DNA of 64,000 nucleotides from Lentiprolixibacter aurantiacus. Lineage in GTDB: Bacteria > Bacteroidota > Bacteroidia > Flavobacteriales > Flavobacteriaceae. Below are positions 12,083-34,203 of this stretch, one piece after another. The translations under genes were made by a program, and so were the position numbers. The DNA is taken from positions 248,001 through 312,000 of the forward strand of contig NZ_JAPFQP010000001.1 of NCBI RefSeq assembly GCF_026241225.1. The letters run 5' to 3'. The notes under the pieces were generated by a model, which did no database searches, was not told where the DNA came from, and saw only the letters and a list, made by a program, of their open reading frames with translations. Position 1 is the stretch's first letter, and every line of letters starts with the position of its first letter.

Positions 12083-12133
12083 GATACAATGATTTTGTTT
12101 TTACTAATGTACCTTTAATACACTCCCCATTTT

Positions 12134-12147
12134 ATGATATTTATCAG
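12134..12147. promoter_or_regulatory. Candidate Crp/Fnr-type operator upstream of tonB
   Basis: ATGATATTTATCAG contains the perfect palindrome TGATA-TT-TATCA, matching the Fnr core TGAT-N4-ATCA. It resembles the sites at 24894, 25450 and 33975. It lies 52 bases upstream of the tonB start codon. Confidence 0.4.
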
Positions 12148-12257: not shown

Positions 12258-13838
12258 CTAAGTGCTTCTGAGCAAAACCTCATCAAAATCAATTCCATCA
12301 ATAGGCACGAGTTGTTCGGAAACGGGATCCCAGTCGATCCTCCTTCCCAGTTTATAGGAAAGTCCGGCCATATGGGCAGAAATGGCTTCATCAAAGCCCT
12401 CATCAATACCACAACTCAATTTGCCTCCGTTTCGCGTTGCACTGAGCCATTCCCGAAGGTGGAGGAAAGTAGAATCTACGCGCTTTCCGTCGATATAGGT
12501 CCACATCAGGCCCTTATCTGCAAAATACTGGGAAGTAGCTGAAGAAACTGCATCAGGTGCACTAGCCGCAGGATCATACTGATAAATGGGCACACGCGGA
12601 TTCATTTTTTCCGCTTCAATCATTTCCGCATATTTTGTAGAGCCACTTTCCGGCCAGATAGTAAGCCTGTTGCCCAGCTCCATGGTAGCATCATGGCCCA
12701 TTAATATGGTTGGCCTGCTGAAACCATTTCCAAGAGTAGCACTGTAAACAAATGTCATCCCTTTTTCTTTTCCCTTTACCTGGCTGCTTCCGGTACTGTA
12801 GTCTGAAAATTCCATGTTTACCTGCAATACATCCGGAACATTGCGGCCGTCATTATGGGTATAGATACCACCGGAAGCCATTACACTATTAGGTATACCC
12901 ATATTAAGCACGCAATTCAAACGGTCGTAGTCATGTGTCAACAGATCCCCGGAAAGACCGGATCCATACGCCCACCACTTCCTCCACCTGAAGAAGTGGT
13001 TCTTATTGAAGGGTATTTTTGGTGCACTGCCCAGGAACATCTCCCAATCGATGGTATTCTCATTGGCCTGCTCGTGAATATCATAGTTCCAGGCCCCGTT
13101 GTCATCATTCCTGTTGGTATTGGTCTGGATCAGGGAAACATGTCCCAGTATACCTTTTTCGATAATATCCTGGGCTGTCTGGAAGCTCAGCGTTTGCCTG
13201 TGCTGGTGCCCAACCATCAACAATGCTTTAGATTTACGTGCTGCTTCCCTCAATCTATACGTTTCTTCAATGGTATGGGTCATGGGTTTTTCCACATAGG
13301 CGTGTACACCATTCTCTAGGGCATCAATGGCCATAGGGGCATGCCAGTGGTCTGGCGTGGCGATAATAACAGCATCTACTTCACCACTGCGGATCATTTC
13401 CTCGTGGGTCCTGAATCGCTTTAAAGGCTTATACGGATTTAGTTTTCTGGCCTGCTCAGCCCGAACGTCAAAAATATCGCATACGGCTACAAGGTCTACA
13501 TTGAGCTTTTCCTGATCCAGAAAATCCTGAAGTTGATTGTTTTTCGGATCTTCTTCATGCGCAATGCGCATGGCCTCTTTCCATTCCTCCGTGGCATATC
13601 CCAATGCCCGGCACAATTGCTCCCCTCGTATCCCAAAACCTATAATTCCTATACGAATGGGGTTTCCACTTATGGCCTTAACAGCACTGGGTAGTGAAGG
13701 GTCTATTTTCAATTGTTCGAGAATTGCAGATCGTTCCCTGTTTTTGGATACTGTATTTGATGCGCCGGCCCACCAGACTGCTCCTAGTATAGGAATTCCA
13801 CCAAGGCCTTTGAGAACATCTCGTCTAGTCCATTTCAT
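12258..13838 (-). CDS. Tat-exported Gfo/Idh/MocA-family oxidoreductase
   Basis: 526 residues. The N terminus has a twin-arginine signal (TRRDVLKGLGG followed by a hydrophobic stretch), predicting export of the folded, cofactor-bound enzyme. A Rossmann NAD(P)-binding motif, IGIIGFGIRG, starts at about residue 63, and the family's EKP motif (YVEKPMTH) sits near residue 190. A C-terminal dehydrogenase domain follows. Members oxidise or reduce sugars and related polyols; the substrate here cannot be read from sequence. The gene overlaps the DoxX gene by 4 bases and is last in its operon. Confidence 0.85.
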   Translation of the reverse strand: MKWTRRDVLKGLGGIPILGAVWWAGASNTVSKNRERSAILEQLKIDPSLPSAVKAISGNPIRIGIIGFGIRGEQLCRALGYATEEWKEAMRIAHEEDPKNNQLQDFLDQEKLNVDLVAVCDIFDVRAEQARKLNPYKPLKRFRTHEEMIRSGEVDAVIIATPDHWHAPMAIDALENGVHAYVEKPMTHTIEETYRLREAARKSKALLMVGHQHRQTLSFQTAQDIIEKGILGHVSLIQTNTNRNDDNGAWNYDIHEQANENTIDWEMFLGSAPKIPFNKNHFFRWRKWWAYGSGLSGDLLTHDYDRLNCVLNMGIPNSVMASGGIYTHNDGRNVPDVLQVNMEFSDYSTGSSQVKGKEKGMTFVYSATLGNGFSRPTILMGHDATMELGNRLTIWPESGSTKYAEMIEAEKMNPRVPIYQYDPAASAPDAVSSATSQYFADKGLMWTYIDGKRVDSTFLHLREWLSATRNGGKLSCGIDEGFDEAISAHMAGLSYKLGRRIDWDPVSEQLVPIDGIDFDEVLLRST

Positions 13839-14329
13839 TGCGCTTCGGATTTATTTAGTGATTTATTTCGATTCCAAATATTGCCAAGGCCAAATATTTG
13901 GGCTGTTGGATGTTGCAGTACGATCAGGCATGCTACAAGTTCAATCAGGTTCTTGTTTACAAACCAGTAGCTCCCTTCCACATTTACCTGCTCTAACCAG
14001 GGAAAAGGCGGATGAGCCAGGTAATACAGGGCCAGAAGAAATATACCTACCCCTGCACCCCATTTTTCAAAGACTCCAAGGGTGAGGGTAATGCCCACAA
14101 ACATCAGGGCCATCCAGTTCAGGTTATCTGCCCAAACCAAAAAAGGCTCCTGACTAATAGCTAAAAAAACTGGTTTAAAAGGTCCTTGTGCTGAAGCCAG
14201 ATACCCGAAAGAGGTCCAGTCCGGGTTATATAATTTGATCACACCTTCGTACAGAAAGTGCCAGCCAATTAAAATCCTCATGAGAACTATGCTATGCTTT
14301 AGTTCCCACCTCGTTTTTGATCCTGACAT
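13835..14329 (-). CDS. DoxX-family membrane protein
   Basis: 164 residues with four predicted membrane helices, beginning with the MRILIGWHFLYEGVIKLYNP segment typical of DoxX/DoxD-like proteins in Bacteroidota. The family includes subunits linked to quinol oxidation and thiosulfate metabolism, but most members have no proven role. Its 4-base overlap with the Tat-exported Gfo/Idh oxidoreductase suggests the pair works together, with DoxX possibly passing electrons from the periplasmic enzyme to the membrane; that is inference. Confidence 0.75.
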   Translation of the reverse strand: MSGSKTRWELKHSIVLMRILIGWHFLYEGVIKLYNPDWTSFGYLASAQGPFKPVFLAISQEPFLVWADNLNWMALMFVGITLTLGVFEKWGAGVGIFLLALYYLAHPPFPWLEQVNVEGSYWFVNKNLIELVACLIVLQHPTAQIFGLGNIWNRNKSLNKSEAQ

Positions 14330-14484
14330 ACTATTTGAATTAATTATTTTTTATCGTTTAAGTCCTGCCGTTAGAGGAATAAATCTATCTGAGATAAAAC
14401 TCCCAAAACTAAACCTTGTCCAACAGGACAACTATGATTTTTGTCAGGGCTTAAGCCTGTTTGCTGTTCTTCCTTTCTCATTCT

Positions 14485-24766: not shown

Positions 24767-24893
24767 GATATACTTTTTATGTTGTTCGGTACATTAATTC
24801 TTCTTGTTTTCTTAATTCGATATCCAATTGGAAGGCATAATTCTCCACAGAATCAAATCGCTATAAAAGTATGGTCATTGCCGCGCGCAGACT

Positions 24894-24907
24894 ATGATAA
24901 ATGTCAG
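24894..24907. promoter_or_regulatory. Candidate Crp/Fnr-type operator upstream of nifJ
   Basis: ATGATAAATGTCAG, a near-palindrome (TGATA-AA-TGTCA), sits in the intergenic region before nifJ. An identical 14-mer precedes the rseC-rnf operon, and a close relative lies between the ferredoxin gene and korA. Confidence 0.5.
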
Positions 24908-24936
24908 GTATGGAAAGGGGGTTAGCCCATAAACAA

Positions 24937-24968
24937 TCACCCCTTTGCAACATTGTACAAAGGGGTGA
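24937..24968 (-). terminator. Hairpin, probable terminator of the ferredoxin gene
   Basis: A perfect 11-bp stem (TCACCCCTTTG/CAAAGGGGTGA) with a 10-base loop, about 75 bases after the ferredoxin stop codon on the minus strand. It is followed there by TTGTTTATG, a weak T tract. Two further hairpins lie just to the right. Confidence 0.55.
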
Positions 24969-24977
24969 CCCACTGGT

Positions 24978-25013
24978 GTTCCCCGTTGGGGAACTTCCAG
25001 TAATTATGGAAGT
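24978..25013. repeat. Two abutting stem-loops downstream of the ferredoxin gene
   Basis: A 7-bp hairpin GTTCCCC/GGGGAAC with a 3-base loop (24978-24994) abuts a second 7-bp hairpin ACTTCCA/TGGAAGT (24993-25013). Together with the hairpin at 24937 they make three consecutive stem-loops in 77 bases. Confidence 0.5.
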
Positions 25014-25043
25014 ATAAGTTCTTAAACTATGTGCCGGATTGCA

Positions 25044-25394
25044 CTATTCCCCGTGCATCCAGACTTTCTTAGCCAGGAGTTGTTCCTCAGTCTCAACGTG
25101 ATCCTCATCGGGAACACAGCAATCAACCGGACAAACGGCAGCACATTGAGGTTCATCGTGGAAGCCTTTGCACTCGGTACATTTATCGGGAACTATAAAA
25201 TAAAACTCCTCAGATATCGGTTCGTTTTCGGCGTCTGCATCCACCTCTTCCCCATAAGGCGTGGTGGTCATTCCGCTGAGCTCTGTTTCATCTGAATAAG
25301 ACCATTCCTGATCGGGCTCATAAATGGCATTATTTGGGCATTCGGAAACACAGGCATCGCAATTAATACATTCGTCGGTGATGATAATAGCCAT
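25044..25394 (-). CDS. 2x[4Fe-4S] ferredoxin
   Basis: 116 residues. The first cluster motif is CINCDACVSECP near the N terminus. The second is CTECKGFHDEPQCAAVCP, with an eight-residue insertion between the second and third cysteines as in YfhL/Alvin-type ferredoxins. An acidic insert (residues about 27-60) and an acidic C terminus fit an electron carrier for basic partner surfaces. It lies between nifJ and korAB and is divergent from korA, so it is the obvious candidate acceptor for both oxidoreductases and donor to RNF. I cannot see which partner is preferred. Confidence 0.92.
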   Translation of the reverse strand: MAIIITDECINCDACVSECPNNAIYEPDQEWSYSDETELSGMTTTPYGEEVDADAENEPISEEFYFIVPDKCTECKGFHDEPQCAAVCPVDCCVPDEDHVETEEQLLAKKVWMHGE

Positions 25395-25449
25395 AACTTC
25401 AGTTTTAAAAATACTACCGCTAAAATACTGTGACCTTTCCTAGCCATTA

Positions 25450-25463
25450 ATGATATATGTCAT
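25450..25463. promoter_or_regulatory. Candidate Crp/Fnr-type operator between ferredoxin gene and korA
   Basis: ATGATATATGTCAT is palindromic apart from one pair (ATGAyATATrTCAT). It lies 55 bases upstream of the ferredoxin start and 92 upstream of korA, so it could control both directions. Confidence 0.5.
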
Positions 25464-25518
25464 ATTTTCACTATGAAAGAAGGGGTAATTTTCAGACCTT
25501 TGAAAGAACTTACTTTTA

Positions 25519-25535
25519 AGCGTAATCCTTACGCT
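25519..25535. promoter_or_regulatory. Perfect inverted repeat just upstream of korA
   Basis: AGCGTAA-TCC-TTACGCT, a 7-bp perfect inverted repeat with a 3-base centre. It ends 20 bases before the korA ATG and immediately follows a TACTTTTA -7-like box, the position of a repressor operator or a 5' UTR hairpin. Confidence 0.45.
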
Positions 25536-25555
25536 AATCTGATAAATAAATATCC

Positions 25556-27412
25556 ATGACAACGGTAAAAACAAAACAATCGGAACAAGCTCTTGAGGCT
25601 GTTGTTGTTCGTTTTGCCGGAGATTCAGGAGATGGTATGCAATTAACCGGCACCCAGTTCTCAGATACTTCGGCAATGTTTGGAAATGATGTAGCTACCT
25701 TCCCTAATTACCCTGCTGAAATCCGTGCCCCTCAGGGGAGTTTATACGGAGTTTCAGGATTCCAGGTACATATTGGAAGTGTTGAGATAAGTACACCGGG
25801 GGACAATGTGGATCTTCTGGTAGCCATGAACCCGGCGGGTCTTAAAACCAACCTGCATGCGGTGAAGGCTGGCCACGGGATTATTGTAGACACAGATGCA
25901 TTTACCCATAAAAATCTGGAGAAAGCACAGTATAGCTCAAACCCTCTTGAAGACGGAAGCCTAGATGGATATCAGGTTATTGAAGTCAGCATGACCTCAT
26001 TGACCAAGGAGGCCCTGAAAGATGTGGAGGGCCTGGATAATAAAAGCATTACCCGAAGCAAAAATATGTTTGCCCTGGGTATGGTCTACTGGATGTACCA
26101 TAGGTCACGGGAGCATACCATAGATTTTTTCAAAAAGAAATTTAAGGGGAAACCAGCCCTGATCGAAGCAAATACCAAGGTGCTCAATGCCGGTTTTTAC
26201 TTCGCCGAAACCCTGGAACTGATCCCTAATTCCTACACCGTGGCCCCGGCAAAAATGCCTTCGGGGAAATACAGGATAATCATGGGGAATACAGCTACTG
26301 CATGGGGTTTCCTGGCAGCGGCAGAAAAGTCCGGGCTGGAATTGTTCCTGGGATCCTACCCTATAACTCCGGCTTCAGATATCCTTCATGAGCTTGCCAA
26401 GCACAAGCATTTTGGGGTAAAATCACTTCAGGCCGAAGACGAAATTGCGGGAATAGGCTCGGCTATTGGCGCCTCCTTTGCAGGAGATCTGGCCATCACC
26501 ACCACATCAGGCCCCGGGTTGGCTCTGAAAAGTGAAGCGCTGGGCCTGGCCATGATGCTGGAACTGCCCCTCGTGGTTGTCGACGTGCAACGGGGAGGGC
26601 CCTCTACCGGTTTACCCACCAAGACAGAACAATCAGACCTGCTACAGGCCATGTACGGACGAAATGGAGAGAGCCCGGTAATTGTTATCGCCGCAAGTAC
26701 TCCTGCAAATTGCTTCAATTTTGCCTATGAGGCCTGCAAGCTTACCCTGGAGCATATGACCCCGGTTATTTTGCTTACTGATGGTTATATCGCCAATGGT
26801 TCTGCTCCGTGGAAGATCAAAAGTGTATCCGAAATGCCGGATATCAAACATCGTATCATAAGGGAAGCAAAGAATACCTGGCATCCCTACGAACGGGATA
26901 AGGATACCCTTGCCCGGGATTGGGCTGTTCCTGGAACTGCAGGACTTGAGCATAGGGTTGGAGGCCTCGAAAAAGACAAACTCAGCGGACAGGTTTCCTA
27001 TGTTCCGGAAAACCATGAACATATGACTCAGGTGCGTGCGGAAAAGATCAAAAAAGTTCAGAACTACATTCCGGATCTGGAAGTGAAATTCGCCGAGGAA
27101 GGCGAGTTACTGGTCGTAGGCTGGGGTGGCACCTATGGAACACTTTATGCGGCAGTAAAGGAATTGGCCTCAAGTGGGGTTTCCGGGGTTGGCCTGGCCC
27201 ATTTCAATTACATCAACCCACTTCCGAAGAATACGGAAGAGGTATTAAGGCGATTTAAAAAGATAGTTGTCTGCGAACTGAATAACGGACAATTCGTTTC
27301 GATACTCAGAATGAATTTCAACGGTATTTCCTTTGAACAGTTTAATAAGGTTCAGGGGCTGCCCTTTGGAAATGCAGAATTAATTAAACGATTTAAAGAA
27401 CTCCTGGGATAA
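25556..27412 (+). CDS. korA: 2-oxoacid:ferredoxin oxidoreductase, fused gamma-alpha subunit
   Basis: 618 residues. The N-terminal gamma domain (about 15-200) begins VVRFAGDSGDGMQLTGTQF, and the alpha (pyrimidine-binding) part begins near residue 240 with ELFLGSYPITPASDIL. This gamma-alpha fusion is the form called KorA or OorA in many Bacteroidota. With KorB it oxidatively decarboxylates a 2-oxoacid, most often 2-oxoglutarate, to the acyl-CoA and reduces ferredoxin. The beta gene follows after 2 bases. Substrate choice between 2-oxoglutarate and other 2-oxoacids cannot be fixed from motifs. Confidence 0.93.
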   Translation: MTTVKTKQSEQALEAVVVRFAGDSGDGMQLTGTQFSDTSAMFGNDVATFPNYPAEIRAPQGSLYGVSGFQVHIGSVEISTPGDNVDLLVAMNPAGLKTNLHAVKAGHGIIVDTDAFTHKNLEKAQYSSNPLEDGSLDGYQVIEVSMTSLTKEALKDVEGLDNKSITRSKNMFALGMVYWMYHRSREHTIDFFKKKFKGKPALIEANTKVLNAGFYFAETLELIPNSYTVAPAKMPSGKYRIIMGNTATAWGFLAAAEKSGLELFLGSYPITPASDILHELAKHKHFGVKSLQAEDEIAGIGSAIGASFAGDLAITTTSGPGLALKSEALGLAMMLELPLVVVDVQRGGPSTGLPTKTEQSDLLQAMYGRNGESPVIVIAASTPANCFNFAYEACKLTLEHMTPVILLTDGYIANGSAPWKIKSVSEMPDIKHRIIREAKNTWHPYERDKDTLARDWAVPGTAGLEHRVGGLEKDKLSGQVSYVPENHEHMTQVRAEKIKKVQNYIPDLEVKFAEEGELLVVGWGGTYGTLYAAVKELASSGVSGVGLAHFNYINPLPKNTEEVLRRFKKIVVCELNNGQFVSILRMNFNGISFEQFNKVQGLPFGNAELIKRFKELLG

Positions 27413-27414
27413 TT

Positions 27415-28425
27415 ATGGAAACAGCAGAAAAACAATATACGTTTAAGGACTTTGCCAGCGACCAGGAGGTGCGTTGGTGTCCGGGATGTGATGATTACGT
27501 GATCTTAAGGGCCATGCAAAAGGCATTGCCTGAACTGGGCGTAAGAAAGGAAGATGTAGTATTTATATCCGGAATTGGGTGTTCTTCCCGCTTTCCGTAT
27601 TACATGGACACCTATGGCATGCACAGTATCCACGGAAGGGCTCCCGCGATCGCTTCTGGGGTAAAACTGGCGAATCCGGATCTCAGTGTCTGGGTTATCA
27701 CCGGAGACGGGGATGCCATGGCAATTGGTGGGAACCATTTTATCCACCTGCTGAGGCGTAATCTGGACATCAACATTGTCCTTTTTAACAATGAGATCTA
27801 TGGCCTCACCAAAGGACAATTTTCCCCTACATCTACTGTGGGCCAGCGAACCAAATCATCCCCTTATGGAAATATCCAGCCCCCTTTCCTGCCCGGAGAA
27901 TTAGCTATTGGGGCTCAGGCCCGGTTCTTTGCCCGTGTAGGAGGTAATACCCCTAAGGAAATGACCGAGGTGTTTGTAGAAGCTGCTAAATTCAAGGGTA
28001 CTTCCCTTGTTGAAGTCCTTCAGAATTGCCCGATCTTCAATAATGGTGCTTTTGCCAAGTATACCGATAAGGCGGTTCGAGCTGACAAACAATTGTTTGT
28101 GGAGCATGGAAAGCCTATGATCTTTGGAAAAGAAAGGAATAAGGGCTTAGTGCTTAACGGGCTCAAACTGGAAGTGGTAACCATAGGAGAGAATGGTATT
28201 ACGGAGGAAGACCTGCTGGTTCACGATGCCCAGATGCAGGATCCCACACTGCATCAAATGCTGGTACGCAGTGAGTATCCCCTGGTAACGGGAATTATAC
28301 GGGGCTTTCCCGATATTACTTTTGAAGAAAGAGCAGCCGATAAAACGGAAAAAGTGAAGAGAGACTCTAATTTCCATAAAACGGATGATCTCTTCTTTTC
28401 AGGAGAGACCTACGAGGTAGATTAG
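27415..28425 (+). CDS. korB: 2-oxoacid:ferredoxin oxidoreductase, beta (TPP) subunit
   Basis: 336 residues. CPGCDDYVILRAM near the N terminus, SGIGCSSRFPYYMDTYGMH and the TPP-binding GDGDAMAIGGNHFIHLLRRN with NNEIYGLTKGQFSPTS are the hallmarks of the beta subunit. Cysteines in these segments ligate the single 4Fe-4S cluster of the family. It is translationally close to korA (2 bases) and the two form the active complex in the cytoplasm. The gene converges on rnfA, with 21 bases between stops and no obvious terminator. Confidence 0.93.
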   Translation: METAEKQYTFKDFASDQEVRWCPGCDDYVILRAMQKALPELGVRKEDVVFISGIGCSSRFPYYMDTYGMHSIHGRAPAIASGVKLANPDLSVWVITGDGDAMAIGGNHFIHLLRRNLDINIVLFNNEIYGLTKGQFSPTSTVGQRTKSSPYGNIQPPFLPGELAIGAQARFFARVGGNTPKEMTEVFVEAAKFKGTSLVEVLQNCPIFNNGAFAKYTDKAVRADKQLFVEHGKPMIFGKERNKGLVLNGLKLEVVTIGENGITEEDLLVHDAQMQDPTLHQMLVRSEYPLVTGIIRGFPDITFEERAADKTEKVKRDSNFHKTDDLFFSGETYEVD

Positions 28426-28446
28426 CCTGGGACGGCGTACCAAAGA

Positions 28447-29022
28447 TTAAACAAGGCCCGCAAATCCTAAAAAGGCCAGGGATAATAGCCCGGCTACGAG
28501 TAAATTAATCGGCACGCCTTTCATTCCCTCGGGCAGATCTGCCAGTTCCAGGAACTCGCGTATACTTGCGAAGACAATCAGTGCCAGGGCAAATCCTACC
28601 GAACTGGAGAAAGCGAAGAATACGGCCTTAAGCAAGCTTCCATTCTCCATACCCAGGGCCAGGATAGCCACACCCAGGACTGCACAGTTAGTGGTGATCA
28701 AAGGTAAAAAGACCCCAAGTGCCTGGTATAAAGGCGGGCTTACTTTCTTGAGAATAATCTCTACCATTTGCACCAGGGCAGCAATAACCAGAATAAAGGT
28801 TATGGTCCTCAAATAATCCAGGCCCATGGGGACCAGGATATATTGATGCAATAAATAAGTAACCGTAGTGGCGATGGTCATTACAAAAAGTACTGCCCCT
28901 GACATCCCTGCCGAGGTTGATATTTTGTTGGAAACCCCCAGGAATGGGCATATCCCCAGAAACTGTGACAATACGATGTTATTGACGAAAACGGCACCTA
29001 CAAATATTACCCAATATTCCAT
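28447..29022 (-). CDS. rnfA: RNF electron-transport complex subunit A
   Basis: 191 residues with six membrane helices. The start VNNIVLSQFLGICPFLGVS and the inner TNCAVLGVAIL segment are the paired Cys-containing motifs of RnfA/NqrE, which hold a membrane Fe-S cluster in solved RNF/NQR structures. It is the last gene of the rnfBCDGEA operon, 1 base after rnfE. Confidence 0.93.
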   Translation of the reverse strand: MEYWVIFVGAVFVNNIVLSQFLGICPFLGVSNKISTSAGMSGAVLFVMTIATTVTYLLHQYILVPMGLDYLRTITFILVIAALVQMVEIILKKVSPPLYQALGVFLPLITTNCAVLGVAILALGMENGSLLKAVFFAFSSSVGFALALIVFASIREFLELADLPEGMKGVPINLLVAGLLSLAFLGFAGLV

Positions 29023-29023
29023 A

Positions 29024-29629
29024 CTACAAGACTTTATGAGTTAACCTGTTGAACGCAATGGCCAGATAGGCAAGCGCCACAAAAGCCCCCGGGGGTAATA
29101 TAAAAAGGATCAGGGTATTGGCATCTTCGGATACAAACCTGAACTCAAAGATGCTGCCGCTACCAAGAATCTCCCGGGTTGCCCCCAAAGCAGTAAGTGC
29201 GATAACAAATCCAATTCCCATACCGAGGGCATCAACCACTGAAGCCATCAGGTTATTTTTAGAGGCAAAGGCTTCTGCCCTGCCCAGTATAAGGCAGTTA
29301 ACCACTATAAGTGGAATAAAAATCCCCAGTTGTTCATATAAAAATGGAATATAGGCCTCCAGTACCATTTCCACAATGGTGACAAAGGAAGCAATGATCA
29401 CGATAAAAGCAGGAATCCGTACTTTATTCGGAATCTGGGATTTGATGATGGAAACTACAATATTAGACATAAGCAAAACAAACAGGGTTGCCAGGCCCAT
29501 ACCAAGGCCATTAAAGGCTGAGGAGGTTACCCCAAGGGTGGGACACATCCCAAGAAGCATCACAAAGACCGGGTTTTCTTTGATGATGCCCTTCAGGAAA
29601 TTTTGTTTGAGTTCTCCAGAGTTACCCAT
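29024..29629 (-). CDS. rnfE: RNF electron-transport complex subunit E
   Basis: 201 residues with six membrane helices and the RnfE/NqrD signature: [18 protein letters not shown] near the start and [15 protein letters not shown] mid-chain, the mirror-image partner of RnfA. It lies 5 bases from rnfG and 1 base from rnfA. Together RnfA and RnfE form the membrane cluster-binding core. Confidence 0.93.
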
Positions 29630-29634
29630 ATCCT

Positions 29635-30237
29635 TTACTTATCCGATTTTAAATTCCTTTCCCTAAACGCCAAATACGCATCGTAGGCCTGCTGTGTGGC
29701 CTCAGAAAAAGCTCTTGTGCTAATAGTGGCTCCGGCAAGGGCATCCACTTCACCTCCGTCTTTCCTTACCTTAAGGTCAAAATCTGCCGGATGCTTTCCC
29801 CGGAACTGCCGCAAGAACTTTTCACCCTTCATTTTGGTACCCAACCCAGGGGTTTCCTTTTGTTCGAGCACGGCAATATTTATAATATTCCCGTCGGGTT
29901 CAAAGCCCACCATGAGTTTTACCAGTCCGCTGTATCCCCTTTCGGATACGCCGGTAACTGCAGCCCCCACAAAGACGCCGTCTTTAGCCGCCGGATAGAT
30001 CTCCACGCTATCTTTTACATCCGCCATTTTCATCAAATGCCCTTCGCTGATAGGATTATTATTGAACTGGGGAAGGACCACATTAAGAGCCCTCATTTTT
30101 TTGGCGAGCCGCGCTTTTGCCTTGGGCTCCAGTGTGATATCATTAACATATCCCAGGGAAAGGCCTGCGGCCAGGGTGATTAAAAAAAGTACAATCACCA
30201 TATTGATAAGCGTTGATTCTTTCTTTTTCACCATCAA
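29635..30237 (-). CDS. rnfG: RNF electron-transport complex subunit G (covalent FMN)
   Basis: 200 residues: one N-terminal membrane helix (about 12-30) and a periplasmic FMN-binding domain. The motif [10 protein letters not shown] near residue 170 contains the Thr that carries the covalently linked FMN in RnfG/NqrC proteins. It overlaps rnfD by 4 bases, suggesting translational coupling. Confidence 0.93.
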
Positions 30238-31244
30238 ATTATTTTAGCTTTGATTTTAGACCCGAACCTCCTGGGCTTGAAATAGCTGTTGATCAGTGGC
30301 ACAAAAGCATTCATTATCAGTATGGCGAATGAAATACCTTCCGGGTAGGCACCCCATAATCGGATAACCACAGTAATCACCCCGATCCCGATCGCAAAAA
30401 CAACCATGCCTTTCTTGGTGACCGGACTGGTTACCAGATCGGTTGCCATGAAGAATGCACCTAATATAGCCCCTCCGGAAAGCACATGGATAAGCGGACT
30501 GGCATATTGTTCAGGGTCTATCAACCAGAAAATGCCGGTCATAATTGCAATAGTTACCAGAACTGTAACAGGGATATGCCAGGAAATCACCTTTCGAACG
30601 ATAAGAAAAACCCCTCCAACGAGCAGGGCAAGGGCCGACATTTCTCCTATGGAACCGGCTGTTATGCCATAGAACATATCCATGGCAGAGGGAAGTTGTG
30701 CACTGATTTCCGACATAGTCTGCCCAAATTGCACACCTTCTTTAATAAGTCCCAGGGTAGTGGCACCGGTTACGGCATCCACCAGGGTAGTGTTATTCTC
30801 AACAGCCGTTGGCCACAGCGTCATTTCCACAGGGAAAGATACCAGCAGGAACACCCTGCCCACCAAAGCCGGGTTGAATATGTTATACCCAAGACCCCCA
30901 AAGGACAACTTAGCCACACCTATAGCCACCAGGCTACCAATAACGATCATCCATATCGGAATCCCTGCGGGCAGGTTAAACGCCAGCAGGATTCCCGTGA
31001 TCAGGGCAGAACCATCCCCAATGGTAACACTGCTTTTTAAAATATAACGCTGAATGAGGTATTCGAAAAGAATACAGGAAACAACTGCTGCAGCAGTGGC
31101 AATAAAGGCATTAATTCCAAACACATAAAGCGAAACCAGAAATACGGGAATCAGTGCAATGACAACATCGTACATGAGCTTTTCGGAGGTCCGCTCTGAA
31201 TGAACGTGGGGAGATGCTGAAACAATGAAGGGTTGTCCGCTCAT
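30234..31244 (-). CDS. rnfD: RNF electron-transport complex subunit D (covalent FMN, ion channel)
   Basis: 336 residues and about nine to ten membrane segments. The DAVTGATTLG motif (about residues 155-165) is the FMN attachment site of RnfD/NqrB proteins. FNPALVGRVFLLVSFP and the C-terminal GISFAILIMNAFVPLI segment are also typical. This subunit is thought to form the path for Na+ or H+ translocation; the coupling ion cannot be inferred here. It lies 1 base from rnfC. Confidence 0.93.
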   Translation of the reverse strand: MSGQPFIVSASPHVHSERTSEKLMYDVVIALIPVFLVSLYVFGINAFIATAAAVVSCILFEYLIQRYILKSSVTIGDGSALITGILLAFNLPAGIPIWMIVIGSLVAIGVAKLSFGGLGYNIFNPALVGRVFLLVSFPVEMTLWPTAVENNTTLVDAVTGATTLGLIKEGVQFGQTMSEISAQLPSAMDMFYGITAGSIGEMSALALLVGGVFLIVRKVISWHIPVTVLVTIAIMTGIFWLIDPEQYASPLIHVLSGGAILGAFFMATDLVTSPVTKKGMVVFAIGIGVITVVIRLWGAYPEGISFAILIMNAFVPLINSYFKPRRFGSKIKAKII

Positions 31245-31245
31245 A

Positions 31246-32574
31246 TTAGGCCGATTTCGTTTCCAGTTGTTTTACAATAGATTTACCGAATCGAATATAG
31301 TCGAGAAGCGGACGATGCGACGGGCACACATAGCTGCAGGAACCACATTCTATACAGGTGAGAATATCTTCCTGTGATGCTTTTTCATACATGCCCTTTT
31401 CTGAAAGGTTCATCAACAAGTGGGGCTCCAGTCCCATAGGGCAGACATCCACACATTCCCCGCAGCGGATGCAATTCTTGGGAGCGCCCCTGCTTGCCTC
31501 ATCCTCTGAAATAACAAGAATACCAGAGGTGCCTTTTGTAACCGGAACATCCATATTTTTGAGGGCCATACCCATCATGGGACCTCCGCTCACAATTTTG
31601 CGTGTATTTTCCGGTACGCCACCGACGGCATCTATCAGATCACTGATAGGTGTTCCTATTTTTACCCAGAAGTTTGAGGGTTGATCCAGTTTTTTCCCGG
31701 TTACGGTCACTACACGTTCCAGCAAGGGACGGTTATGCTGAACCGCCTGATAGATGGCATAAACAGTACCTACATTATGCACTACAACACCCACATCGAG
31801 GGGCAGTCCATTTTTGGGCACTTCCCTTTTTAACAGGGCCCGGACCAATTGCTTTTCTCCCCCCTGAGGATATTTCACCTTCAATGCCGCGATCTGTATC
31901 CCGGATTCATTGGTGGTTAACTTTTTAAAAAGGTCTATCGCATCCCTTTTATTGTTTTCAATTCCAATTATCGCCCTGTCTACATGCAGTGCGTGCATCA
32001 GTATTCGGATGCCAACCAGGATTTCTTCAGAATGCTCCAGCATAAGCCTGTGATCTGCAGTAAGGTAAGGCTCACACTCCACGCCATTAATGATCAGGCA
32101 GTCTAGTTTTTTTCCCTCTTTGATCTGAAGCTTCACATGCGATGGAAACGTAGCTCCCCCCAGTCCAACAATACCGTAATCCGATATACGCTGTAAAATT
32201 TCTTCAGGTTCCAGTTCTATTTCCTTCCTGAGCGGATATTCTATTTCCTCCAGGTTGGATTCATTCTTGGCATCTGTCCTGATAACAATACACTGCTTCT
32301 TATAACCACGGGTATCTACTATCTTGTCCAGTTTAGTTACCGTGCCGGCCACAGGCGCGTGAATATTGGAAGAAACGAAGCCTCCGGATTTTGCAATAAC
32401 CTGACCAATCTCTACCTTGTCTTTCCTGTCCACAATTATTTCTGCCGGGATCCCGATATGCTGGGAAATGGGGACATAGACTACTTTAGGCAAAGGGAGC
32501 CTTTTAATAGGTTTCGAAGAAGTCAACTTATTTTCTGGAGGATGAATTCCCCCTTTTGGAAATGTCCTAAGCAT
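31246..32574 (-). CDS. rnfC: RNF electron-transport complex subunit C (NADH-binding)
   Basis: 442 residues, a soluble peripheral subunit. It has an N-terminal barrel-sandwich domain, a flavin/NADH-binding core (GLGGATFPSHVKL with a glycine-rich loop near residues 137-150) and two C-terminal 4Fe-4S motifs, CIRCGECVDVCP and CIECGSCSYVCP. It exchanges electrons with NAD. Its start overlaps the rnfB stop by 8 bases. Confidence 0.93.
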   Translation of the reverse strand: MLRTFPKGGIHPPENKLTSSKPIKRLPLPKVVYVPISQHIGIPAEIIVDRKDKVEIGQVIAKSGGFVSSNIHAPVAGTVTKLDKIVDTRGYKKQCIVIRTDAKNESNLEEIEYPLRKEIELEPEEILQRISDYGIVGLGGATFPSHVKLQIKEGKKLDCLIINGVECEPYLTADHRLMLEHSEEILVGIRILMHALHVDRAIIGIENNKRDAIDLFKKLTTNESGIQIAALKVKYPQGGEKQLVRALLKREVPKNGLPLDVGVVVHNVGTVYAIYQAVQHNRPLLERVVTVTGKKLDQPSNFWVKIGTPISDLIDAVGGVPENTRKIVSGGPMMGMALKNMDVPVTKGTSGILVISEDEASRGAPKNCIRCGECVDVCPMGLEPHLLMNLSEKGMYEKASQEDILTCIECGSCSYVCPSHRPLLDYIRFGKSIVKQLETKSA

Positions 32575-33460
32575 CTTTTTGCACCTTTACCGATTCAACT
32601 TTAGCTGCAACCTCAGGTTCTGCCTTTTTCACTTTCCTGGGTGGAAAGTTGGTTTCAATTATCGAATTAGTCGGGCATACGGGAACACATTTCCTGCACA
32701 GGGTGCAGTAAGCGGGATCGATGTATGCCAGGTTGTTTTCTACCACTATGGCATCTTTGGGACAGGCATCTACACATTTAGAGCAGCCAATACAGGCTAC
32801 AGAACAGGCCTTTCTGGCGATACCGCCTTTCTCCTCGTTCAGGCACCCCACATATATCTTCAGATCCCTTTTCTTTTTCGGGCGCATTTCAATAATATTC
32901 CGTGGGCAGGCATCCACACACATTCCGCAGGAGGTACATTTATCTGTGATCACCACAGGGAGTCCCGTGGCTTCATCCATGTACATGGCATCAAAAGAGC
33001 AGGCCGCCACACAATCCCCGTCGCCCAGACAACCATACTGACAATCCGTTTCGCCGCTGTATATCAAAGCAGAAATTGCACAGGATTTTGGGCCCTGGTA
33101 TTCTGTGGTTTTGGGCCGGACCTCACAACTTCCCTGGCAACGTACCACGGCTACGGTGGGATCTTTCTCCGCCACTTCCTTACCCAGGGTTTCGGAAACC
33201 AGCTTCATAACTTCATTTCCCCCAACCGGACAGAAAAGATCTGATATATCTTCGGTGTTTACGAGTTTTTCTGCAAATGCTTTACAGCCCGGAGAACCAC
33301 AGCCTGCGCAGTTGGCTGCGGGAAGAAGATCCTCCACTTCAGCAATCAAAGGATTTTCGTAGACATAGAATTTTTTGGATACCACGAAGAGTACCAGGGC
33401 TGCCACTGTTCCCAGCAAGGCCAACAAAATTGCACTATGTAATATGGAATCTGTCATCAT
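32567..33460 (-). CDS. rnfB: RNF electron-transport complex subunit B (ferredoxin-like)
   Basis: 297 residues. A membrane anchor (about 8-27) is followed by an Fe-S domain with C51, C54, C59 and C77 (CAGCGSPGC...C). Several further ferredoxin-type cysteine motifs follow (CTSCGMCVDACP, CIGCSKCVDACP, CTLCRKCVPVCP and a CLGDGDCVAAC variant). This subunit is the entry point for electrons from reduced ferredoxin. It lies 3 bases after the rseC-like gene and overlaps rnfC. Confidence 0.93.
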   Translation of the reverse strand: MMTDSILHSAILLALLGTVAALVLFVVSKKFYVYENPLIAEVEDLLPAANCAGCGSPGCKAFAEKLVNTEDISDLFCPVGGNEVMKLVSETLGKEVAEKDPTVAVVRCQGSCEVRPKTTEYQGPKSCAISALIYSGETDCQYGCLGDGDCVAACSFDAMYMDEATGLPVVITDKCTSCGMCVDACPRNIIEMRPKKKRDLKIYVGCLNEEKGGIARKACSVACIGCSKCVDACPKDAIVVENNLAYIDPAYCTLCRKCVPVCPTNSIIETNFPPRKVKKAEPEVAAKVESVKVQKDA

Positions 33461-33463
33461 ATA

Positions 33464-33892
33464 TCAAATACTCAGCACCGAAATCCTGAATTTCTTTTTG
33501 AAGTAATCTTTAAATGCATATACGGTTCCGTAATATGGGATAAGGATCAGGAGCGACAATAAACCTGCCATCCATTCCGGAAGGAATAAGGAAGAAGTTA
33601 CCAGAGTTGCCAGCACAAGAAGGAAAGGGAAGATATAGGCCCAGTAGACCGCTTTTTGCCCTAAATCCTTTTTCAGGATTACTTCCACAGGCTGGTTGAG
33701 CTTAAAGGAGCCTTCCGGATTGTTAATTTCAACAGTTTTGTTTACCGTATCCGTTACACCACAGGCACCTCTTGCATTACAGGACTCGCAATGGACATTC
33801 TTGTCCAGCGAAACAATAATAGAGCTTCCTTTCATTTCAGAAACCACACCTGTGTGAACAAATGCCTCTGTTTCTTCTGCCTTTATACCCAT
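33464..33892 (-). CDS. rseC: RseC/SoxR-reducing-system family membrane protein
   Basis: 142 residues from the ATG at 33892; a GTG at 33940 would add 16 poorly conserved residues, and I cannot exclude it. A cytoplasmic beta domain carries the cysteine cluster CESCNARGACG (four Cys, as in RseC), followed by two membrane helices (about 80-125). RseC-like proteins accompany RNF/RSX operons, and in E. coli the complex keeps SoxR reduced. It is first in the operon, 3 bases before rnfB. A candidate Fnr/Crp-like site lies about 83 bases upstream of the ATG. Confidence 0.85.
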   Translation of the reverse strand: MGIKAEETEAFVHTGVVSEMKGSSIIVSLDKNVHCESCNARGACGVTDTVNKTVEINNPEGSFKLNQPVEVILKKDLGQKAVYWAYIFPFLLVLATLVTSSLFLPEWMAGLLSLLILIPYYGTVYAFKDYFKKKFRISVLSI

Positions 33893-34203
33893 GGCTCTTG
33901 AATTTAATCCTTTCAATTTTAGTGAATACCAATAATTCACGAGGTAAAACTAACATATCCGTTTTAGCCATTTCATGATAAATGTCAGCGTTCTGATTTG
34001 TACATCTGCAGGGTATTTTGGCTGGAAATAGCTTCCTGAAGCCAATATTTAAAGCATTTTGTGATGTCCATTTGTAAAGATTACCGCTGTTTAGCCCCAA
34101 TTAGCGGATTATGAAGTGTTTAAAACCGGGCATTGATCGAATTTAACAGCATTTTTTAACCCTGTGGCAAGGTATTTGCTAATTTTATGGAAAAATAAAA
34201 GCT
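33893..34203. other. Intergenic region between the rnf operon and a divergent secreted-protein gene
   Basis: About 310 bases, AT-rich, with no credible gene. It holds the operator-like site at 33975-33988 for the rnf operon and a TAATTTTA -7-like box at 34180-34187 before the rightward gene. No RNA structure stands out. Confidence 0.5.
33975..33988. promoter_or_regulatory. Candidate Crp/Fnr-type operator upstream of the rseC-rnf operon
   Basis: ATGATAAATGTCAG, identical over 14 bases to the site upstream of nifJ, located 83 bases before the ATG of the first gene of the operon. Confidence 0.5.

Follow-up and report, generated by a model that had tools for sequence, protein, structure and literature searches.

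The question raised by this locus is whether a 14-bp palindromic motif that recurs in a 64,000-nucleotide stretch of the Lentiprolixibacter aurantiacus genome (the whole stretch is called the window here), upstream of nifJ, a ferredoxin gene (fdx), korAB and the rseC-led rnf operon, is a regulatory site, and which protein reads it. Judged from sequence, the motif is very probably a real binding site at the position of a Crp/Fnr activator, and the genes that carry it probably form a set which is common across the Flavobacteriaceae and responds to low oxygen. Two candidate regulators were identified in the genome, an FNR-like protein and a fusion of a receiver domain to a Crp-type protein (receiver-Crp). 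The reading that we regard as likely is class II Crp/Fnr activation of the window genes, with the FNR-like protein as the likeliest activator and receiver-Crp overlapping with it. Genomes, contigs and loci are given G, C and L numbers where they must be told apart.

A first-pass annotation of the window had listed several copies of the motif, and all were found where it had placed them: ATGATAAATGTCAG upstream of nifJ and of rseC-rnf (24894-24907 and 33975-33988), ATGATATATGTCAT between fdx and korA (25450-25463), and a relative, ATGATATTTATCAG, on the tonB side (12134-12147). The pattern ATGATAWWTRTCAK has four matches in the window; 100 dinucleotide shuffles averaged 0.06 and never gave as many as four, although this 14-mer pattern was derived from the same sites that it counts and the genome scan is the fairer test. 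One further site, TGACAAAAATCA at 14435-14446 on the minus strand, has a TAGTTTTG box at the same spacing as the others and makes a sixth window promoter with the site-plus-box layout (14404-14446), ahead of a gene for 164 amino acids. The centres of this site and of the four originally named sites are pure A/T.

The scan of the 3.13-Mb genome (9 contigs) with ATGAYAWWTRTCAK gave 22 rows, six of which were the second strand of a palindrome, leaving 16 distinct places, 12 of them outside the window; the reversed pattern gave 1 + 1 matches. All 16 places are outside recognisable genes: L016 overlaps a stop codon, L013 is in a chance frame of 52 amino acids, and L009 is within an open frame ahead of the fnr-like gene, upstream of the start supported by homology. 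The composite of site and promoter box, TGAYNNNNRTCA-N23-TANNTTT, matches the genome 51 times, and its reversed control has no match. At 49 of the 51 composites a frame of 60 or more amino acids starts within the next 250 bp, a figure that has no control; the exceptions are L014, where the chosen frame is at 406 bp, and L030, which has a frame of 55 amino acids only. Four of the loci (L029, L035, L036 and L038, on G000:C1 and C2) encode small lipoprotein-like paralogues of unknown function, and their promoters are alike over the 42-bp stretch from site to box. About five of the 51 composite promoters (L038 contributes two) are alike throughout, with four of the five small proteins paralogous, and are not independent.

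The position of the box points to the type of promoter. A TAnnTTTG-like box of the Bacteroidota sigma-A type, with 5 of 6 matches, begins exactly 29.5 bp from the motif centre for nifJ, fdx, korA, rseC-rnf and tonB. The site between fdx and korA has boxes on both sides, so this single site serves both divergent promoters. Throughout the genome, 14 of the 16 sites have a box (score of at least 5 of 6) at exactly 29.5 bp in at least one direction, and 1.9% would be expected per site from other offsets. The activators CRP and FNR occupy position -41.5 in class II promoters, and a spacing of 29.5 bp between site and box is the class II Crp/FNR geometry. In Flavobacterium psychrophilum the TAnnTTTG box lies at -12 to -5, according to PMC9723704, which together with 29.5 bp to the first T of the box places the site centre at -41.5. 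Both hallmarks of a class II Crp/Fnr promoter are therefore present, namely a two-fold symmetric site of 14-16 bp and a centre at -41.5 (a position taken from the box spacing).

Conservation was assessed in 80 named loci fetched with a KorA query. These come from Flavobacteriaceae genera or are labelled Flavobacteriaceae, Flavobacteriales, Bacteroidia or Bacteroidetes, apart from two records of metagenome-assembled genomes (MAGs) labelled Piscirickettsiaceae (L078) and Chlorobiota (L084). The first-pass annotation had named two results that would speak against the motif, lack of conservation upstream of orthologous genes and an equal frequency inside genes, and neither was observed. Upstream copies of the core accompany nifJ in 44 of 51 loci, fdx in 70 of 75, korA in 71 of 80 and rseC in all seven. 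Within genes (nifJ, korA, korB and rnfC; 397,915 bp of coding sequence) the core was counted 27 times, as against 210 times in 42,417 bp of upstream sequence, defined as the 200 bp before nifJ, fdx, korA and rseC, with the site shared by fdx and korA counted for both genes. Core and strict TAnnTTT box occur together at 29.5 bp in 38 nifJ, 31 fdx, 65 korA and 2 rseC loci. Among all offsets from 14.5 to 58.5 bp in the named loci, the strict box was counted 136 times at 29.5 bp and 15 times at 28.5 bp, and no other offset exceeded 9. Separate sites for fdx and korA occur in Gramella, Christiangramia, Salinimicrobium and Salegentibacter. G002 is of the same genus as the window's genome.

The genes near the motif or composite sites in the genome indicate what the set may do. 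They include ccoS-ccoNO, ccoI, hemN, universal stress proteins, HSP20, a ribosome-hibernation-type protein, cytochromes c, a NuoEF-type oxidoreductase, a sulfide:quinone reductase, an NrfD/DsrO-type operon, phosphoenolpyruvate carboxykinase, an enzyme of the pyruvate phosphate dikinase (PPDK) type and the fnr-like gene itself. The genome scan that had been suggested earlier returned low-oxygen genes (ccoNO with ccoS, ccoI and hemN). Many of the genes downstream of composites belong to no known family.

Four proteins with a cNMP_binding domain scored above the search threshold in the genome. The FNR-like protein (231 amino acids; G000:C1:1116630-1117322) has cNMP_binding and HTH_Crp domains (Pfam) and a modelled Crp fold, and its gene is divergent from ccoI with a motif copy in between. 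A query with this protein fetched 30 loci, of which 29 were readable (L160 gave no match); ccoI adjoins the gene in 25 of the 29 and a core site lies upstream in 24. In an alignment of 26 orthologues, C7, C10, C56 and C109 are invariant. Three sequences were excluded from it as paralogues (L157-L159), of which L157 has none of the four cysteines and L159 lacks C56. The profile of the protein matches the FNR chains of Aliivibrio fischeri (E 1.6e-37 to 1.5e-36), and its predicted model (predicted local distance difference test score of 90) matches Crp/FNR structures; a Porphyromonas gingivalis Crp/Fnr protein ranks first, and A. fischeri FNR appears from rank 11 on. The cluster ligands of Escherichia coli FNR are C20, C23, C29 and C122. 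Aligned with A. fischeri FNR, the FNR-like protein has three cysteines at ligand positions; the cysteine matching C29 is absent, and the invariant C56 stands elsewhere, so the four-ligand pattern is not reproduced. The FNR family typically has the recognition residues E..SR and TTGAT half-sites; the FNR-like protein has E..IR, and the half-site here is ATGAY. The protein was not classed as a plain FNR, since it departs from FNR in ligand pattern, recognition residues and half-site as well as in its score against a curated family. It probably holds an Fe-S cluster and is probably active at low oxygen.

The second candidate, receiver-Crp, is a chain of 349 amino acids with receiver, cNMP_binding and HTH_Crp domains. 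Recognition-helix residues of the A[TS]E..IR type are common to both candidates and are not found in the remaining two paralogues. Twenty receiver-Crp loci were fetched, of which 18 were readable with the helix pattern used. A frame of the histidine-kinase type lies directly upstream in 17 of these 18, each resembling the kinase of the window's genome. The latter is at L161:4644-6533 on the minus strand (G000:C3:319000-331000), directly upstream of receiver-Crp. Its N-terminal PAS domain resembles FixL (1d06, E 1.5e-12) and contains a histidine that we take to align with the heme histidine of FixL. It is followed by a LOV domain that contains NCRFLQ and matches a LOV-FixL construct (E 5e-42), a further PAS domain, HisKA and HATPase. 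The NCRFLQ motif was not seen in the other 18 frames upstream of receiver-Crp.

The distribution of both proteins was compared with that of the sites in 219 Flavobacteriaceae genomes of at least 90% completeness. The cut-offs (E below 1e-45 for the FNR-like protein and below 1e-40 for receiver-Crp) were set after the hit lists had been seen, genomes unlisted in the hit tables were counted as being without the protein, and one receiver-Crp match (G183) was partial. The A/T-centred composite had 1147 matches and the reversed pattern 18 (summed by hand). Genomes with both regulators (n=68) had a mean of 8.6 sites, and none was without a site. Those with the FNR-like protein only (n=77) had a mean of 4.2, those with receiver-Crp only (n=43) a mean of 5.4 with two genomes lacking any, and those with neither (n=31) a mean of 0.26, with 28 lacking any. 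Small genome size is not the whole reason for the last figure, since 10 of the 11 neither-regulator genomes of at least 2.9 Mb have no sites. A one-to-one link of the sites with the FNR-like protein was considered and rejected. G009 and G024, for example, lack the protein yet have sites, and genomes of this kind call for a second regulator.

The genes behind the sites were compared in genomes with one regulator, for those genomes whose sites were listed (67 sites; G044 and G237 are of one genus, and L233 and L234 are adjacent), against a reference set from the window's genome. Matches to this set numbered 19 of 31 in five receiver-Crp-only genomes and 17 of 36 in six FNR-like-only genomes. The respective counts were 3 and 3 for ccoNO, 3 and 4 for hemN, 1 and 3 for tonB, and 2 and 1 for cytochrome c, and universal stress proteins occurred in both. 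FNR-like status was also determined for the named genomes, using 49 of the 80 named loci and searching 47 genomes (L071 and L121 were left out); to count as a site, a core had to lie no more than 250 bp from a gene with 70% identity or higher and to have a box scoring 4 of 6 or better. All 22 genomes with the FNR-like protein have a nifJ site, as do 2 of the 7 without it, both MAGs (L088 and L097). Among the central four bases of nifJ, fdx and korA sites, G+C makes up 0% in genomes with the protein and 25-39% in those without it. Tracking at nifJ and the A/T centres make the FNR-like protein the better candidate for nifJ and for A/T-centred sites such as those of the window. The fdx and korA sites, which occur without the FNR-like protein and then have looser centres, indicate that receiver-Crp evidently can serve these two genes.

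In the mechanism we propose, a Crp/Fnr dimer would bind TGAYAWWTRTCA and recruit RNA polymerase. This site would be centred at -41.5 of a sigma-A promoter, in which 29.5 bp separate the middle of the site from the first T of the TAnnTTTG-like -7 box. At low oxygen the FNR-like protein would become active and be the main activator of the window genes. The enzymes that produce reduced ferredoxin (NifJ and KorAB) and the one that uses it (Rnf) would then be activated together with cbb3 oxidase, heme synthesis and stress genes. Receiver-Crp, acting behind its histidine kinase, would recognise very similar sites and, where the FNR-like protein is missing, might serve much of the gene set by itself. 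The first-pass annotation had assigned the motif to one Crp/Fnr-type regulator and had placed the ferredoxin genes in one regulon, possibly controlled by oxygen or redox state. The type of operator is borne out by spacing, conservation and co-occurrence, but the single regulator has given way to two candidates. The common sites and the low-oxygen gene set agree with one regulon. Site, box spacing, conservation, genome-wide set and co-occurrence with the two proteins are observed, and the pairing of regulator with site, activation as the mode of action, oxygen as the signal and the Fe-S cluster are inferred.

Several observations weigh against this account. Only 31 of 75 fdx loci and 2 of 7 rseC loci have the strict box at 29.5 bp. 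Of the FNR-like-only genomes, 7 of 77 have no strict A/T-centred site, and 3 of the 31 genomes with neither regulator do have sites (G140 five, G178 two and G040 one). G140 is a 4.3-Mb genome in which neither regulator was found at the thresholds used. In one-regulator genomes, nifJ, fdx, korA and rseC are not among the genes that follow the 67 sites. The FNR-like protein does not predict whether the fdx and korA sites are present (fdx, 22 of 35 with it and 7 of 7 without; korA, 30 of 38 and 7 of 9). The co-occurrence tests ignore phylogeny, and the five nifJ loci without a site are all from Gramella, Christiangramia, Salinimicrobium and Salegentibacter. The FNR-like protein scores below the NCBIfam Fnr cut-off (PRK11161.1: 103.2 bits against 228). 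As the motif is common to two regulators, single sites cannot be assigned with certainty. Lastly, the composite is much rarer outside the Flavobacteriaceae, with 71 matches in 153 genomes against 5 for the reversed pattern (hand-summed), while genomes of the family have 5.2 each on average. In the class-wide sample, 49 of 158 genomes have the A/T-centred composite, 29 of these once, and 126 of 158 have FNR-like homologues (E 1e-20). The excess of 71 over 5 suggests that a related system may exist in other families.

Other explanations were weighed against the same evidence. The window sites could be used mainly by receiver-Crp, in which case a histidine kinase would govern nifJ, kor and rnf in place of a direct oxygen sensor. 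Both proteins share the type of recognition helix, genomes with the fusion only have as many A/T-centred sites, also before ccoNO, hemN, tonB and universal stress protein genes, and the fdx and korA sites persist without the FNR-like protein. However, the nifJ site is missing in five of the seven genomes without the FNR-like protein, and G+C enters the site centres there, whereas the five window sites are pure A/T; we consider this explanation rather unlikely. The regulator could also be one of the other two Crp/Fnr paralogues (C4:466753 or C4:151152), near which L014 and L016 lie within a few kb. Their recognition helices, TSRVVISR and TVREVISR, are unlike those of both candidates, for which reason they were set aside, and the FNR-like protein and receiver-Crp, the two proteins that the survey covered, account for nearly all sites in its 219 genomes; a role for either paralogue is thus very improbable.

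A perfect palindrome alone does not identify a protein family, and the motif might instead be bound by a repressor or by palindrome-binding proteins of an unrelated family. The fixed spacing of 29.5 bp and the co-occurrence with two Crp/Fnr proteins make this slightly more improbable still. Finally, an A/T-rich palindrome might recur by chance, and the loose core TGAT-N4-RTCA by itself in fact showed no clear excess within the window, a point against the observation (5.45 matches were expected and 9 counted, a number reached by 16 of 100 shuffles), so subsequent counts used the full motif or the motif with its box. Those counts (51 against 0 in the genome and 1147 against 18 in the survey) and the conservation in named loci refute chance, to which we give practically no weight. 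Activation chiefly by the FNR-like protein remains the reading we prefer. A broader and more tentative idea, which we hold to be possible but on balance doubtful, is that two interchangeable activators could serve one low-oxygen set, a directly sensing FNR with a new ligand set (CxxC...C56...C109) and a one-protein FixJ-FixK driven by a kinase, and that some genera may have lost FNR and retained much of the set under the fusion alone, with nifJ dropping out. Because the kinase combines a FixL-like heme PAS domain with LOV, joint control could follow, with oxygen and blue light together setting ferredoxin metabolism and cbb3 respiration in the window's genome.

Coordinates, strands and supporting evidence for the sites, -7 boxes and genes of the window
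Feature	Coordinates	Strand	Evidence or remark
Crp/Fnr-type site of nifJ	24894..24907	-	reads CTGACATTTATCAT; motif scan and conservation
Crp/Fnr-type site common to divergent fdx and korA	25450..25463	.	motif scan and conservation
Crp/Fnr-type site of rseC-rnf	33975..33988	-	motif scan; core in 7/7 rseC loci
Crp/Fnr-type site of tonB	12134..12147	-	motif scan; like sites before tonB elsewhere (L198, L233, L234, L243)
Further site, core TGACAAAAATCA	14434..14447	-	composite scan
-7 box of nifJ, TACTTTTA	24864..24871	-	first T 29.5 bp from site centre
-7 box of fdx, TATTTTAG	25420..25427	-	29.5 bp from site centre
-7 box of korA, TAATTTTC	25486..25493	+	29.5 bp from site centre
-7 box of rseC-rnf, TAGTTTTA	33945..33952	-	29.5 bp from site centre
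Weak -7 box of tonB, TACATTAG	12104..12111	-	29.5 bp from site centre
-7 box of further site, TAGTTTTG	14404..14411	-	same spacing
nifJ, pyruvate:ferredoxin oxidoreductase, 1177 amino acids	21233..24766	-	Pfam POR_N, POR, EKR, PFOR_II
fdx, ferredoxin with 4Fe-4S dicluster domain, 116 amino acids	25044..25394	-	Pfam Fer4_7, Fer4
korA, 2-oxoacid:ferredoxin oxidoreductase alpha, 618 amino acids	25556..27412	+	Pfam POR_N, POR
korB, 336 amino acids	27415..28425	+	Pfam TPP_enzyme_C
rseC-like gene, first of rnf operon	33464..33940	-	Pfam RseC_MucC
rnf operon	28447..33460	-	rnfB 32567-33460 and rnfC 31246-32574 by Pfam; other four frames named from order and size alone
tonB, 240 amino acids	11360..12082	-	Pfam TonB_C
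164-amino-acid membrane-type protein (by eye), downstream of 14435 site	13835..14329	-	open reading frame; no Pfam match at E 1e-6

In the window, the predicted transcription start of rseC (33940) coincides with its listed GTG start codon, and the true start codon is therefore probably further downstream. Elsewhere in the genome, the sulfide:quinone reductase gene (L164:2210-3454, plus strand, in G000:C4:138500-142500) gives a full-length match to the NCBIfam 'type III, selenoprotein subtype' and has no in-frame stop. A composite site lies ahead of it, and another lies ahead of the divergent FadL-type gene. Two metallo-beta-lactamase/rhodanese genes stand beside the motif copies L014 and L016 (G000:C4 near 149.5 and 463.2 kb), each of which is a few kb from another Crp/Fnr paralogue (C4:151152 and C4:466753).

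With respect to the literature, one study reports that cbb3 oxidase and heme enzymes rise in a flavobacterium when oxygen is limiting, and its main text does not contain the words Fnr and Crp (PMC9723704). Literature searches restricted to open-access papers returned no FNR-type regulon described for the Flavobacteriaceae, and some of the queries probably missed the spelling 'Crp/Fnr'. In a metatranscriptome study, CRP/FNR homologues of Flavobacteriales, Saprospiraceae and Ignavibacteria MAGs were assigned to MalR, and carbon sensing was predicted from the MalR matrix (PMC8510549). Those proteins resemble ours in being Crp/Fnr family members of Bacteroidota and relatives, whereas the gene set here is respiratory and stress-related. 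This suggests that the MalR and carbon-sensing assignment may fail for some of those homologues. The present analysis supplies a concrete operator, a promoter geometry and two candidate regulators, all of which are testable. About fifty targets are predicted for this genome by the scan pattern, and many of these genes have no known function. The comparison suggests a regulon that is largely kept while the protein in charge of it changes, being a direct sensor in some genomes and a two-component fusion in others.

FNR of E. coli and A. fischeri activates class II promoters from the site TTGATnnnnATCAA. The system described here is like it in having a two-fold symmetric 14-bp site at -41.5, targets of the low-oxygen type and, in the FNR-like protein, a CxxC near the N terminus with the cysteine of an MVCEIP strand. 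It differs in its half-site, which is ATGAY with an A/T-only centre where FNR has TTGAT, and in the residue preceding the recognition-helix arginine, which is isoleucine in the FNR-like protein and serine in FNR. The equivalent of C29 is missing while C56 is invariant, and the promoters carry the Bacteroidota -7 box.

A parallel in organization is offered by the alphaproteobacterial FixK/FnrN regulons, for which PMC4999443 gives cco and hemN as targets and two related regulators that share very similar sites, TTGANCNNGATCAANG. One of these regulators has Fe-S ligands and the other lacks them and acts behind a kinase (FixLJ-FixK), according to the same source (PMC4999443). Both cco and hemN as targets and a pair of related regulators on very similar sites, one with probable Fe-S ligands and one without them that would act behind a kinase, are found again here. 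However, the receiver is fused to the Crp part in one chain, so that the separate FixJ and FixK which mark the FixLJ-FixK system are lacking, and the organisms belong to another phylum. Unlike in the FixK/FnrN regulons, ferredoxin oxidoreductases and Rnf are among the predicted targets here.

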